From Candidatus Kryptonium sp. (GTDB lineage: Bacteria > Bacteroidota > Ignavibacteria > Kryptoniales > Kryptoniaceae): a DNA stretch of 64,000 nucleotides. The DNA lies in contig JANXBN010000005.1 of assembly GCA_025060635.1 (NCBI GenBank), positions 62,001-126,000 on the forward strand, read 5' to 3'. Of the stretch, positions 42,423 through 48,116 are shown one piece after another; within the stretch, counting starts at the first letter, position 1; the number at the start of each line of letters is the position of its first letter. The translations under genes and the position numbers were made by a program. The notes below the pieces were generated by a model that worked only from the letters and a program-made list of their open reading frames with translations, did not search any database and was not told the DNA's origin.

Positions 42423-43217
42423 TTACATCTCCTTCGTTTCTTGGCTATGGCAGACGATACAGGGCTTTTTCCAGTCAAAGTTTTCAAAGTCAAAAACCAG
42501 AGCATAAGTTAAACCCTTATCCGTCCACGAGAGTATATTAAAACCATCTCGTGTATCAAGGTAGAAATCAATTTCTTTAAAATTTACCTTCCTTTTGCCG
42601 TAAGGAGTTGCACTTTTAGACGGAGCAACAAACAAGGTCATTGGACGATTGTCCATTTCATAAGATACAAGCGCAGCATAGTCATTATTTAAAGCAACAA
42701 GTCGTGCCCCCTTTATGCGATAGGGTTGATTTGAAGGATCAGGATAACGCGGAAGCCGAAAATTAAATTTTAATTTACCATTGAACCAATTTGAAATCTC
42801 TGTCTCTGAAGACGACACTACTTCAAGTGGAAGTTGACCATTGACTTGACGCATGTGATTCTCAACGGCGATTTTAACAAAATCGGTGCGTTCTGAATGG
42901 AAGTAAATAAAAGATATTGTGATGATTAAAAGAATCGCAATTATGCCGGCAAAAGCGATGTATTTTATAGTTTTTCTTCTTTCTGGTTTGAATCTTTCAA
43001 TTTGTTTTGTGAGTTCCGTTTTGAAATCTTTGGATTGAATTTTTACCTCATCTTTTAGGGCTCTTATTGAATCAATGAAATCACGCTGTTGCTTTAGAAT
43101 TTTTGTGCAATCTGGGCATTCTTTTATGTGTTGTTTGAAAAGTTCAAGCTCATCGCCAGCAAGCTCACCATCAAGGTAAAGATTAATCCATATTTTGATT
43201 GTTTTGTGATCTATCAT
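42423..43217 (-). CDS. Anti-sigma factor with C-terminal CXXCH motif
   Basis: A 264-residue transmembrane anti-sigma factor. The cytoplasmic zf-HC2 domain has the zinc motif HIKECPDC (His30, Cys34, Cys37). One membrane helix lies at about 84-106. The outer domain contains FNFRLPRYPD, KGARLVALNNDYAALVSYEM and ILSWTDKGLTYALVF, a pattern seen in RsiW-type anti-sigma proteins. Unusually, the chain ends KKPCIVCHSQETKEM: Cys253, Cys256 and His257 form a c-type haem attachment motif on the periplasmic side. Its ATG shares a base with the sigma factor stop (TAATG), so the pair is translationally coupled. Confidence 0.88.
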   Translation of the reverse strand: MIDHKTIKIWINLYLDGELAGDELELFKQHIKECPDCTKILKQQRDFIDSIRALKDEVKIQSKDFKTELTKQIERFKPERRKTIKYIAFAGIIAILLIITISFIYFHSERTDFVKIAVENHMRQVNGQLPLEVVSSSETEISNWFNGKLKFNFRLPRYPDPSNQPYRIKGARLVALNNDYAALVSYEMDNRPMTLFVAPSKSATPYGKRKVNFKEIDFYLDTRDGFNILSWTDKGLTYALVFDFENFDWKKPCIVCHSQETKEM

Positions 43218-43729
43218 TACTGCTTTTTTTCGTAAATTTTTAAAAATGTTTCTTTAAGTTTTTCTCTTGCCCTGTTTAATCTTGACATAACTGTGCCAAC
43301 AGGGCAGTTTAGAATTTTTGAGATCTCGTTATAAGAAAAATCTTCAAAATACCGCAAGACAAGAATTTCTCTATAGGCATCTGGCAACTCATTTAAAGCT
43401 CGCATCAAAATCTGACGCACTTCATTATTAATTAACAATTCCTCTGGATTTATATTCCACTCATCACAAACATCTTCTATTGTTTCGTCAAGCTGAACTG
43501 GGGAAATTTGGCTTCTTTTTCTTTGATTTATCCATAAATTTCGCATTATCGTAAATAGCCAAGCCTTCACATTTGAATTTTCGTCAAGTGAGTTCATATT
43601 TTTTAGTGCCTTGTAGCAGGTTTCTTGAACAAGGTCCTTTGCGTCTTCTTCGTTTCCGACCATCACAATCGCATATCGTAACAGTGAATCAATTGAGTTA
43701 ATTATTTCTTTTTTAATCTTTTCAATCAT
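43217..43729 (-). CDS. ECF-type RNA polymerase sigma factor
   Basis: A 170-residue extracytoplasmic-function sigma factor. Region 2 contains RYAIVMVGNEEDAKDLVQETCYKAL and WLFTIMRNLWINQRKR, which open and bind the -10 element; region 4 contains LPDAYREILVLRYFEDFSYNEI and CPVGTVMSRLNRAREKL, which bind the -35. I chose the ATG at 43729 (MIEKIKKEI); the frame could extend to a TTG at 43795 but the extra residues are not sigma-like. It is coupled to the anti-sigma gene and divergent from nhaA, with about 80 bases between. Confidence 0.93.
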   Translation of the reverse strand: MIEKIKKEIINSIDSLLRYAIVMVGNEEDAKDLVQETCYKALKNMNSLDENSNVKAWLFTIMRNLWINQRKRSQISPVQLDETIEDVCDEWNINPEELLINNEVRQILMRALNELPDAYREILVLRYFEDFSYNEISKILNCPVGTVMSRLNRAREKLKETFLKIYEKKQ

Positions 43730-43809: not shown

Positions 43810-44949
43810 ATGAAGTTAACGAAGCTTTTTAATGAATTTTTTGAAAGCGAAAAAACAAGTGGGTTTATTTTGATTGCTTGTACCGTCATCTCTTTGATAT
43901 TGGCGAATTCTCGTTTCGGAAGTGATTATGTAAATTTATTTCATTTGAAATTTGCTGGTTTGACGCTTGAGCATTGGATAAACGACGGTTTGATGGCAAT
44001 TTTCTTCTTGCTTATCGGTCTTGAGTTGGAAAGAGAAATTTATAAGGGGGAACTTTCAAACATCAAGGATGCACTTTTGCCGTTCTTCGGTGCAATTGGT
44101 GGATTATTGTTTCCAGCTGTAATTTACTTGATTTTTAATTATGGAACTGAAACTCAATCTGGCGTTGGGATACCAATGGCAACGGACATCGCATTTGCGT
44201 TGGGGGTTTTATCTTTACTTGGAAGCAAAGTTCCAGCTTCATTAAAAGTTTTTTTAACAGCATTGGCGGTAATTGATGATTTAGCTGCGATAATACTTAT
44301 AGCAATTTTCTATACTAAAACGGTTGTTTTATTGAACTTGCTTATCGCTATAGGTATTTTTGCTTTACTTTTGCTAATTAACAAGTTGGGTGTAAGAGGA
44401 CTTCATTGCTACATTATTGGAGGAGTTATAATGTGGTATTTTATGCTTCATTCTGGTGTACATCCAACTATAGCGGGAGTGTTATTGGCTTTTGCAATTC
44501 CATTTGACCTTGATGATGAGAAATCGCCTTCATATGCCTTGCAACATTTTCTACATAAACCTGTCGCGTTTATTGTCTTGCCAATTTTTGCCTTGGCAAA
44601 TACTGCGATTGTTTTAAGTGGAGAGATTGAACGAAATTTCATTCAAAATTATGTAGTTGGGATTGCTCTTGGTCTTATTGTAGGAAAACCTTTGGGAATT
44701 TTTACATCAACTTTTTTATCTGTGAAGTTTGGAATTTGCAAGCTTCCTGAAGAGTTAAGTTGGAAAACAATTTTTGGGGCAGGGATTTTAGGTGGAATTG
44801 GATTTACGATGTCAATTTTTATTACTTTGCTTGCTTTTAGTGAGCCAACTATAGTAAACACTGCGAAGTTGACTATATTGAGCTCATCAACTATAGCTGG
44901 GTTGTTCGGATTTGTATTTTTGAATCGTGTATTGAGGTCGGATAGATAA
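43810..44949 (+). CDS. nhaA: Na+/H+ antiporter NhaA
   Basis: A 379-residue inner-membrane antiporter that exports sodium in exchange for protons. It has about 11-12 membrane segments. The paired aspartates of the ion-binding site are present in LTALAVIDDLAAIILIA; other conserved strings are INDGLMAIFFLLIGLELERE, GVGIPMATDIAFALGVL and the late LGGIGFTMSIFI helix. Length is typical. It is divergent from the ECF sigma gene and is followed after six bases by a tRNA-Ala gene on the other strand. Confidence 0.97.
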   Translation: MKLTKLFNEFFESEKTSGFILIACTVISLILANSRFGSDYVNLFHLKFAGLTLEHWINDGLMAIFFLLIGLELEREIYKGELSNIKDALLPFFGAIGGLLFPAVIYLIFNYGTETQSGVGIPMATDIAFALGVLSLLGSKVPASLKVFLTALAVIDDLAAIILIAIFYTKTVVLLNLLIAIGIFALLLLINKLGVRGLHCYIIGGVIMWYFMLHSGVHPTIAGVLLAFAIPFDLDDEKSPSYALQHFLHKPVAFIVLPIFALANTAIVLSGEIERNFIQNYVVGIALGLIVGKPLGIFTSTFLSVKFGICKLPEELSWKTIFGAGILGGIGFTMSIFITLLAFSEPTIVNTAKLTILSSSTIAGLFGFVFLNRVLRSDR

Positions 44950-45027: not shown

Positions 45028-45154
45028 ATTCAGGTGAACTCAGCATAAATTTATAAAGCGAAAATGGGAAAAACAAATTTGCCGTTGGAATAAATCTCCA
45101 GTTTTATTTGTCTTATTGAGTAGAAGAAGATGAAAAATAAAAAAGAAAGAAACC

Positions 45155-46309
45155 ATGAGCGGATCAAAACATTTCTATCTGGGAATTTTATTTTTCATTG
45201 CCTTTGTTTTATCGTTCACATTTATAAGTGAAAAGCAAGCGAACTCATCCGCCAAAGTAACCTATCAAGTAAAAATCCCACTTGGAATTCCAAAAGATTT
45301 ATGGGAAATGTTTATCCCGCCAGATAATCCAATAACTCCCGAGAAGGTTGAACTTGGTAGGAAGCTTTATTTTGACAAGCGTCTTTCGGTTGATAATACT
45401 GTTTCGTGCGCAACTTGCCATGATCCCAAGTTTGCATTTGCGGAAAATAAAAAAGTAAGTGAAGGAGTAGGAGGGAAGAAGGGAGCAAGAAATGCGCCAA
45501 CGGTTTTAAATGCAATGTTTTATGAAGAACAGTTTTGGGATGGAAGAGCTCCAACCCTTGAGGAGCAAGCTAAACAGCCTATAATCAATCCAATTGAAAT
45601 GGGCATGCCCGATCATGACGCTGTTGTGAAAAAATTAAAGGGAATCCCAGAGTATGTTGAAGCTTTCAGAAAGGTTTTTGGAGGGGAGATAACGATTGAT
45701 AGGGTTGCGCAAGCAATCGCCGCTTTTGAGAGAACTCTCTTAACAGGTAATTCGCCATTTGATAGGTTCATTGCTGGTGATCAAAACGCTATAAGTGAGT
45801 CAGCTAAAAGAGGATGGCAACTATTTCAAGGTAAAGCGAGATGTATAACTTGTCATGAATTCAATCGCTCAAATCCATTCTTTACGGATAACAAATATCA
45901 CAATATCGGTGTTGCGATGAATAGAGAAGGTTTCGCGGAGCTTGCCAGAAAAGCTGAAATGCTTGCAAAGCAAGGACGACTTGATAAAAGAAAGCTTGAT
46001 GAGCTTGCGCTTGATCCTGCGTATTCTGAGCTTGGGAGATTTCTTGTGACATTAAATCCAAAAGATATTGGCGCGTTTAAAACACCAACGCTGAGAAATA
46101 TTGAACTTACAGCACCATATATGCACGATGGAAGCGAAGCAACACTGCTTGATGTTATTGAGTTTTATAACCGAGGTGGAAATGATAATCCGAATTTATC
46201 AGGTGAGATGAGACCTCTTAATCTAACCGATCAGGAGAAACAAGACCTTGTTGAATTTTTGAAAACATTAACTGGTGAATTTCCGAAAGATTTCCCCGAA
46301 AACAAATAA
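45155..46309 (+). CDS. Di-haem cytochrome c peroxidase (CcpA/MauG family)
   Basis: A 384-residue exported protein with a membrane-anchor or signal sequence (FYLGILFFIAFVLSFTFI). Two haem c sites are visible, CATCH at Cys85-His89 and CITCH at Cys230-His234, in the arrangement of bacterial di-haem peroxidases, which reduce hydrogen peroxide in the periplasm using cytochrome electrons. Family signatures include GRKLYFDKRLSVDNTVSC, NAPTVLNAMF with FWDGRAPTLEEQA, and FKTPTLRNIELTAPYMHDG. It starts a three-gene run with a metallophosphoesterase and a cytochrome c, with only 24 and 28 bases between genes. Confidence 0.94.
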   Translation: MSGSKHFYLGILFFIAFVLSFTFISEKQANSSAKVTYQVKIPLGIPKDLWEMFIPPDNPITPEKVELGRKLYFDKRLSVDNTVSCATCHDPKFAFAENKKVSEGVGGKKGARNAPTVLNAMFYEEQFWDGRAPTLEEQAKQPIINPIEMGMPDHDAVVKKLKGIPEYVEAFRKVFGGEITIDRVAQAIAAFERTLLTGNSPFDRFIAGDQNAISESAKRGWQLFQGKARCITCHEFNRSNPFFTDNKYHNIGVAMNREGFAELARKAEMLAKQGRLDKRKLDELALDPAYSELGRFLVTLNPKDIGAFKTPTLRNIELTAPYMHDGSEATLLDVIEFYNRGGNDNPNLSGEMRPLNLTDQEKQDLVEFLKTLTGEFPKDFPENK

Positions 46310-46333
46310 ACAAACAAAGGGAGGTGCAAAATT

Positions 46334-47482
46334 ATGCCTAAAATGCCAAGTGAAAAAAAGGAAGAGCAGTATTTGAAAGAGCGAGAGGAATTTTTCAAAA
46401 TGCTGCCTAAGCTCAACAGGCGACAGTTCTTGAAAGTTGCGATGGCTTCAGCTGCCGTTGCGCTTGCAAAGAATCAATTCCCACCGCATTCTTTCCAACT
46501 GGTTGAAGCGGTAGAAGCGAAGCAAGGAGGAACTGAGGTCAAGTTTAGATTTGCTTATATTTCGGATACGCATCTTTATGAAAGAAAACTTAATGAAAGA
46601 TTTGTCCGCGCAGCTCTGAAGGCAGTTCAAGATGTCAACGCGCTTGATCCGCAACCCGATTTCGTTCTTTTCGGTGGAGACCTTGCTCAGCTTGGGCAAG
46701 CGGAGGAATTAAAGCTTGGGAAAGAAATTTTAAGCGAGCTCAAACCAAAAGTTTACATGATGGTTGGAGAGCATGACTGGTATCTTGACCTTGGTGAAAA
46801 GTGGATTGAACTATTCGGAAAACCATATTATTCATTTGATCACAAAGGTGTCCATTTCATCGTGTTGAATTCTGTCCTTGTTGATGACTATTGGACCGAA
46901 GCCAAGATGAGCCCAATGGACCGAATGAAATTCATGGCACAGCTTGATAATCCTAACGGGCGACCATTTACAGTTGGACGAGGTTATGGTGATGTTGGAA
47001 AGAAGCAATTTGAATGGTTAAAACAAGATCTTGCGAAAGTTTCAAGAGATACTCCAATCGTTGTGTTCTCGCATTCACCGCTTTACAAGTATTATAAACC
47101 ATGGAACTTCTGGACGGATGATGCTGAGGAAGTTCAAGCGCTTTTGAGACCATTTAGAAATGTCACTGTTATCCATGGACATACACATCAGCCGGTATTT
47201 CATAGAATTGGGAACATAAACTTTTATGGTATGCTTTCAACAGCTTGGCCCTGGCCATATGCACCGACTGGACTTCCAAAGTTGACAATTAAAATGAACA
47301 GAGCAGATCCATTTGATCAATTTGATGGCACAGGCGATGGAACTGTGGAAGTCCTTGCAAATGGAAAGGCGAACAAGATTTATAATCTCTGGAGCAGAGA
47401 GCCAATGAAAGTAACAGCAAGATATCTTGAATCAGGTGGAAGGGAAGAAGTTCCACCACTTCCTATAGATCCATCGTTTTAA
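46334..47482 (+). CDS. Tat-type exported calcineurin-like metallophosphoesterase
   Basis: A 382-residue protein. The N terminus has a twin-arginine signal (NRRQFLKVAMASAAVALA, Arg29-Arg30) after a 28-residue charged leader. The catalytic domain shows the metallophosphoesterase motifs in order: FAYISDTHLYE (D-x-H), FGGDLAQLG (GD), GEHDWYLDLG (GNH-D variant with Glu for Asn), VVFSHSPLY and VIHGHTHQP. The substrate is unknown. The GEHD in place of GNHD is notable because the Asn normally binds a metal. It lies between genes for two c-type haem proteins; a periplasmic role with them is inferred. A good GGGAGGTG precedes the ATG. Confidence 0.9.
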   Translation: MPKMPSEKKEEQYLKEREEFFKMLPKLNRRQFLKVAMASAAVALAKNQFPPHSFQLVEAVEAKQGGTEVKFRFAYISDTHLYERKLNERFVRAALKAVQDVNALDPQPDFVLFGGDLAQLGQAEELKLGKEILSELKPKVYMMVGEHDWYLDLGEKWIELFGKPYYSFDHKGVHFIVLNSVLVDDYWTEAKMSPMDRMKFMAQLDNPNGRPFTVGRGYGDVGKKQFEWLKQDLAKVSRDTPIVVFSHSPLYKYYKPWNFWTDDAEEVQALLRPFRNVTVIHGHTHQPVFHRIGNINFYGMLSTAWPWPYAPTGLPKLTIKMNRADPFDQFDGTGDGTVEVLANGKANKIYNLWSREPMKVTARYLESGGREEVPPLPIDPSF

Positions 47483-47510
47483 AAATAAAAATTTTTAAGG
47501 AGGAATTTTT

Positions 47511-48116
47511 ATGAAGAAGACATTCATCCTCTTAGCTGTTTTTCTCGTAAGTGCATTTTTCAATACTACAAATGATTTAAGCGCAATTGAAAGTGAAGGC
47601 GACAAAAAAACTGAAAAAAAAGTTATAACAGCTTGCGATGGTGAAACTCAAGTTGTTTTGAATGATGTGGCAAAGGATGAAGTTATGTCAAGGGAGAAAG
47701 CTCAAGAAGTTGCAGCAATGCTTATGGCAACATATCAACAGCAAAAGAAATATCAGTCAACGAAATTTACAAGGAGAGATTCATTGATCTGGGATAGAGA
47801 GCTTAAGGCAATGATTGAAGAAGGATATAAATGGTTTCATGATCCATCGCTTGGAACAAATGGAATATCTTGTGATATGTGCCATCCGGATGCAGTTGAT
47901 ACGCATCCCGAAACATATCCGAAATTCCAAATTCAATTAAAGAGAATCGCTCTCCTTCGTGATATGATAAACTGGTGCATTGAAAATCCAATGGAAGGTA
48001 AGCCACTTAAAGAAGATGACCCACGAATGAAGGCAATGGAAGCTTATATCATTTGGGCTCGTGCGAAGCAAGACCCAAGACCAGAAGGTAAGATACTAAA
48101 TCCCGGAAAGAGATAA
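47511..48116 (+). CDS. Periplasmic c-type cytochrome
   Basis: A 201-residue exported protein with a signal peptide (MKKTFILLAVFLVSAFFNTT). A helical, glutamine-rich middle (REKAQEVAAMLMATYQQQ) precedes one haem c site, CDMCH at Cys121-His125, in GTNGISCDMCHPDAVDTHP. The segment after it, RDMINWCIENPMEGKPLKEDDPRMKAMEAYI, is the usual distal part of SoxA-like single-haem cytochrome domains. Probable role: electron carrier for the peroxidase encoded two genes upstream. AAGGAGGA precedes the ATG. A strong terminator follows. Confidence 0.9.
   Translation: MKKTFILLAVFLVSAFFNTTNDLSAIESEGDKKTEKKVITACDGETQVVLNDVAKDEVMSREKAQEVAAMLMATYQQQKKYQSTKFTRRDSLIWDRELKAMIEEGYKWFHDPSLGTNGISCDMCHPDAVDTHPETYPKFQIQLKRIALLRDMINWCIENPMEGKPLKEDDPRMKAMEAYIIWARAKQDPRPEGKILNPGKR

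Follow-up and report, generated by a model that had tools for sequence, protein, structure and literature searches.

An ECF26-type anti-sigma factor with a candidate haem-attachment tail in Candidatus Kryptonium, and its predicted link to a c-type peroxidase operon

Background

The ECF26 group of extracytoplasmic function (ECF) sigma factors has a published promoter consensus, given either as GGAATA at -35 with GT at -10 (PMC6180224) or as GGAAT at -35 with CGTC at -10 (PMC6527743), and the mechanism by which these systems are activated has been described as hypothetical (PMC6180224). Outside this group, Cache sensor domains have acquired cytochrome-derived CXXCH motifs and bind haem c (2026 preprint, PMC12889525). 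Sensing through haem c has also been described for PAS-like chemoreceptor domains, and redox-sensing anti-sigma factors are already known; an anti-sigma factor carrying a c-type haem was not found in the literature searched. Here we consider a candidate for such a protein, encoded in a window of 64,000 nucleotides from the genome of the hot-spring bacterium Candidatus Kryptonium sp. (GenBank assembly GCA_025060635.1, contig JANXBN010000005.1, positions 62,001 to 126,000). The protein in question is a membrane-anchored anti-sigma factor that ends in the motif CIVCH, is encoded next to an ECF sigma factor and, together with the latter, may control a nearby operon for a c-type peroxidase.

Results

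The gene pair comprises the following features:

42423..43217, minus strand: membrane-anchored anti-sigma factor, 264 aa, with a zf-HC2 domain (residues 1-45, cytoplasmic), a predicted transmembrane (TM) helix (~86-107), an ECF26-type periplasmic domain (~110-244) and a CXXCH tail
42423..42482, minus strand: C-terminal tail, the last 19 residues NFDWKKPCIVCHSQETKEM, in place of the family's usual C-terminal helix-like segment (low-confidence model, pLDDT ~27)
42447..42461, minus strand: CIVCH, residues 253-257, candidate c-type haem attachment site, invariant in 7/7 genomes with each codon synonymously variable
43217..43729, minus strand: ECF sigma factor; the frame is open from 43795, with the likely ATG at 43729, and the stop codon overlaps the anti-sigma start

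The first-pass annotation had described the former product as a zf-HC2 anti-sigma factor with a TM helix and a periplasmic domain, and this description proved correct: the open reading frame at 42423-43217 (minus strand) matches zf-HC2 with E=7.3e-9, contains a single strongly hydrophobic stretch (~86-107) and has, just before it, the sequence KPERRK, whose positive charges indicate an N-in/C-out topology. The same holds for the placing of CIVCH among the last 15 residues on the outer face, inasmuch as the frame ends with FDFENFDWKKPCIVCHSQETKEM followed by the stop codon, the motif occupies residues 253-257 of 264, seven residues before the C-terminus, and the predicted topology puts it outside. 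There are only four cysteines in the protein, two in the zinc-finger motif (34 and 37) and two in CIVCH (253 and 256), the latter being the only periplasmic ones under this topology. A ZAS or RsrA-like redox switch was considered and rejected: the HX3CX2C site is not conserved, with His30 replaced by Tyr in one orthologue (G003/L004) and both cysteines invariant, and the RsrA model scores 24.1 bits against a cut-off of 62.5. The public relatives of the gene are four in number, all from Kryptonia. A structure search with the low-confidence model of the protein returned nothing at E<=0.001, and comparison of its sequence with the PDB gave chance matches only.

The conservation of CXXCH in close orthologues, which the first-pass annotation had put forward as a check, is complete: the anti-sigma factor was found in 7/7 searchable genomes of the Kryptonium lineage, with 73-81% identity, and CIVCH is invariant in all of them. 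Within the segment KKPCIVCHS, synonymous differences occur at all nine codons with no change in the protein (the mean third-position identity of the tail codons is 0.53), while residues 259-263, immediately after the motif, all vary among species. It follows, as judged from this codon pattern, that the CXXCH tail is kept by purifying selection. Met264, the last residue (42426-42428), is likewise shared by 7/7 genomes, although it directly follows these five variable positions.

The periplasmic domain matches proteobacterial anti-sigma factors (best E 3e-8), and the matches end just ahead of the CXXCH tail. In profile searches, five genomes of the same class (L042, L043, L015, L016 and L025) proved to encode this domain as well; other phyla were covered through plasmid records together with a single pattern scan across genomes. 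CXXCH is absent from 18/18 homologues read outside the lineage, which have a short helix-like C-terminal segment instead; a tail-only match in another genome (G160) belongs to an unrelated protein. Hence, as far as sampled and as judged by these alignments, the CXXCH tail is a lineage-specific addition to an ECF26-type domain; further CXXCH-bearing anti-sigma factors may exist outside the sampled set. As to gene context, the homologous pair of Pantoea is located after a peroxidase of the catalase family and a protein of the cytochrome b type, and at the homologous locus of Caballeronia a related metallophosphoesterase gene is divergent from the sigma gene.

These homologues also bear on the view that the protein is an ordinary ECF26-type anti-sigma factor whose domain detects a sulfur compound or some periplasmic ligand, that the tail has a role in folding, in binding a partner or in recognition by a protease, and that its CXXCH is incidental. 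All homologues read outside the lineage function without the motif, and the known ECF26 stimulus is sulfite (PMC3511301). However, the chance expectation of a CXXCH in the 157-aa domain, given the composition of the neighbouring proteins, is only ~4e-5, and the motif is strictly conserved despite synonymous divergence, so that we regard this view as rather improbable.

The assignment of the pair itself draws on both partners. The sigma factor groups with sigma factors whose anti-sigma factors share the periplasmic domain (a 94/94 split in a tree that does not include a reference ECF26 sigma factor), its closest plasmid match, from Acidisarcina, having no adjacent membrane anti-sigma factor. 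The anti-sigma factor, in turn, shows the ECF26-type layout, namely, an N-terminal anti-sigma domain, one TM helix and a periplasmic domain homologous to those of anti-sigma factors at proteobacterial ECF loci. The best reading of these sequences is that of an ECF26-type system, judged, for the anti-sigma factor, against the homologues at proteobacterial ECF loci. The genome has a second zf-HC2/ECF pair (L002; anti-sigma open frame of 154 aa), which is present in most of the genus and is devoid of CXXCH.

The first-pass annotation had also pointed to the cytochrome c maturation (Ccm) system as a potential user of an outer-face CXXCH. Indeed, genes for CcmA, B, C, E and F lie next to each other in the genome, which has one more cytochrome-c-assembly match; CcmC and CcmF were assigned by Pfam, and CcmA, B and E by reading and gene order. 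It has been hypothesised that System I takes any CXXCH that is exported as a substrate, and haem was attached to engineered sites (PMC6962350); for Kryptonia, an aerobic and iron-respiring potential has been reported (PMC4737851).

An exposed CXXC close to the chain end could form a disulfide, and the two periplasmic cysteines might thus make up a thiol/disulfide switch, or a metal site, with no haem involved and with His257 tuning the thiol reactivity. Yet an exported CXXCH is likely to receive haem in a cell that has System I Ccm (PMC6962350), and His257 is as strictly invariant as the cysteines, as would be expected for haem c, which requires this histidine, but not for a bare thiol pair; moreover, OsrA, the membrane anti-sigma factor with a periplasmic cysteine compared below, is a six-TM protein of a different family. 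A switch of this kind appears unlikely, and covalent attachment of haem to the anti-sigma tail is, as predicted from the conserved motif and the Ccm genes, the somewhat favoured outcome.

The presumed target of the sigma factor lies on the opposite strand:

45087..45115, plus strand: ECF26-type promoter GGAATAAA-N13-TTGTCTTA, situated ahead of ccp and conserved across 7/7 genomes; the exact match to its core is unique in its own genome
45155..46309, plus strand: di-haem cytochrome c peroxidase of the CCP/MauG family (PF03150), presumed sigma target
46334..47482, plus strand: metallophosphoesterase (PF00149) with a Tat-like signal, ccp operon, 93-96% identity across the lineage
47511..48116, plus strand: mono-haem cytochrome c (SoxA/TsdA-type domain, CDMCH), ccp operon

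A c-type cytochrome/peroxidase cluster about 2 kb away had been noticed in the first-pass annotation, and it is there: it starts at 45155, and the anti-sigma start lies 1.9 kb from this point. Its proximity is, however, weak evidence, because, in the genomes read, rtcB is the constant neighbour of the sigma genes and fliL, in most, that of ccp, and the two blocks lie apart in two genomes (G002 and G006); the evidence of the promoter was therefore used in its place, and the tie to the peroxidase cluster is thereby borne out beyond mere closeness. In particular, the alignment of the lineage genomes shows, upstream of ccp, a block GGAATAAA-N13-TTGTC with constant spacing within otherwise diverged sequence, and alignment and pattern search combined place this promoter ahead of ccp in 7/7 genomes, including those two. 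It agrees with the published ECF26 consensus, spacing included (PMC6180224, PMC6527743), and matches the promoter of the rpoE1 operon of S. meliloti, GGAATAAATCCATAGCCCTCCGTGTCTTA, with an equal spacing of 13 bases. Of the 18 homologous loci, 7 have the motif upstream of the sigma gene, whereas shuffled sequences lead one to expect 0.04. Sigma region-4 matches in the Kryptonium genome number six, so that another of them might in principle act here, but the promoter class fits this ECF sigma factor. It is thus very probable, on this comparative evidence, that the sigma factor recognises the ccp promoter. Extra exact matches to the motif in two genomes (G002 and G005) fall within the dapF coding sequence and were discarded as promoters. 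In L043 (2778-2866), a sigma gene and a DoxX-like gene are separated by two divergent ECF26-type motifs.

The three genes of the operon (45155-48116) are conserved as a unit on a Methylocystis plasmid (L089), with 41-60% identity. Between the sigma gene and ccp, at 43810-44949, lies a gene for an NhaA Na+/H+ antiporter, as also in G004 and not in G001 or G003.

The nature of the target also allows one to conceive of the haemylated tail as a decoy Ccm substrate that reports the capacity for haem export and maturation, its apo or holo state setting sigma activity and the output of c-type cytochromes. The tail is short, predicted to be disordered and resembles a bare Ccm substrate, two of the three target proteins depend on Ccm in their turn, and the own genome has, between ccmB and ccmC, a copy of the promoter motif with one mismatch (L100:5659-5684). 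This copy, however, overlaps the ccmB stop codon and is one of ~10 such sites per genome, none of which was seen conserved, and it was rejected as a target. We know of no precedent for such a maturation sensor and consider it very improbable.

Discussion

When these data are combined, the following sequence of events can be envisaged. The zf-HC2 domain would tether the sigma factor at the membrane, with the ECF26-type domain displayed outside, as is usual in the family. After the last strand of the periplasmic domain, the proteins of the Kryptonium lineage have the short CXXCH tail in place of the usual C-terminal segment, and the Ccm system would most likely attach one c-type haem to this tail, so that the sensor domain would bear a microperoxidase-like haem in an exposed position. 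A change of this haem, be it oxidation by peroxide, binding of NO or a shift in redox poise, would alter the periplasmic domain and release the sigma factor, and the freed sigma factor would then transcribe the ccp-metallophosphoesterase-cytochrome operon from GGAATAAA-N13-TTGTCTTA. The proposal of the first-pass annotation, a direct sensor of redox state, oxygen, NO or peroxide, is partly supported by these data. We give even chances to the haem being the sensor; the scheme as a whole, in which an ECF26-type pair controls a c-type peroxidase operon through an anti-sigma factor with a covalent haem that senses redox state, peroxide or NO, seems to us evenly poised as well.

Several points weigh against this scheme. 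In two of the six resolved genomes (G002 and G006), ccp and the sigma gene are located apart, and the Kryptonium sigma gene is not preceded by the promoter motif, so that autoregulation is not visible; the lack of the motif has likewise been reported for sigE of Starkeya novella (PMC6527743). The AlphaFold model of the anti-sigma factor is poor (mean pLDDT 58) and leaves the tail unmodelled, and hence no axial ligand can be named, although His121, Met188 and Met193 are candidates for the sixth position. Furthermore, those ECF26 systems whose stimulus is known answer to sulfite (PMC3511301), and, since none of the 18 outside homologues has CXXCH, haem is dispensable for the function of the domain.

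If haem is attached, the sensor would have been built by placing a short haem-attachment tail on an existing anti-sigma domain, and the ECF26 group would then include a system whose input is defined and can be followed by spectroscopy and whose target promoter is defined, too; such a built-in haem sensor may be of a previously undescribed kind.

Comparison with known systems

Among the systems with which the Kryptonium locus can be compared, the ECF26 sigma factors with COG5662-type anti-sigma factors, namely RpoE1/RpoE4 with EcfR1/EcfR4 of S. meliloti and SigE of Starkeya, resemble it in the adjacent genes and the one-TM layout, in GGAATA...GTC promoters, in the homologous periplasmic domain found at ECF loci of the same promoter class, and in the control of periplasmic redox enzymes with c-type cytochromes. 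They differ in that the homologues read have no CXXCH and that their target is sulfite dehydrogenase, as opposed to the CCP/MauG-metallophosphoesterase-cytochrome operon. OsrA, the ECF16-associated anti-sigma factor of B. japonicum, is also a membrane protein, and a periplasm-exposed cysteine is needed for its response to H2O2; unlike the Kryptonium protein, it has six TM helices (DUF1109), is devoid of CXXCH and is non-homologous. The sCache_heme domain (DUF3365/Tll0287) is, like the Kryptonium domain, a sensor fold outside the membrane that gained a CXXCH, which there binds haem c and, in fused forms, NO; it has, however, a Cache fold and another output, whereas the Kryptonium motif is located at the extreme C-terminus of an anti-sigma factor and its haem is predicted. 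Should this haem be attached, the Kryptonium protein would represent a second instance of the motif-acquisition route proposed for the Cache domains.
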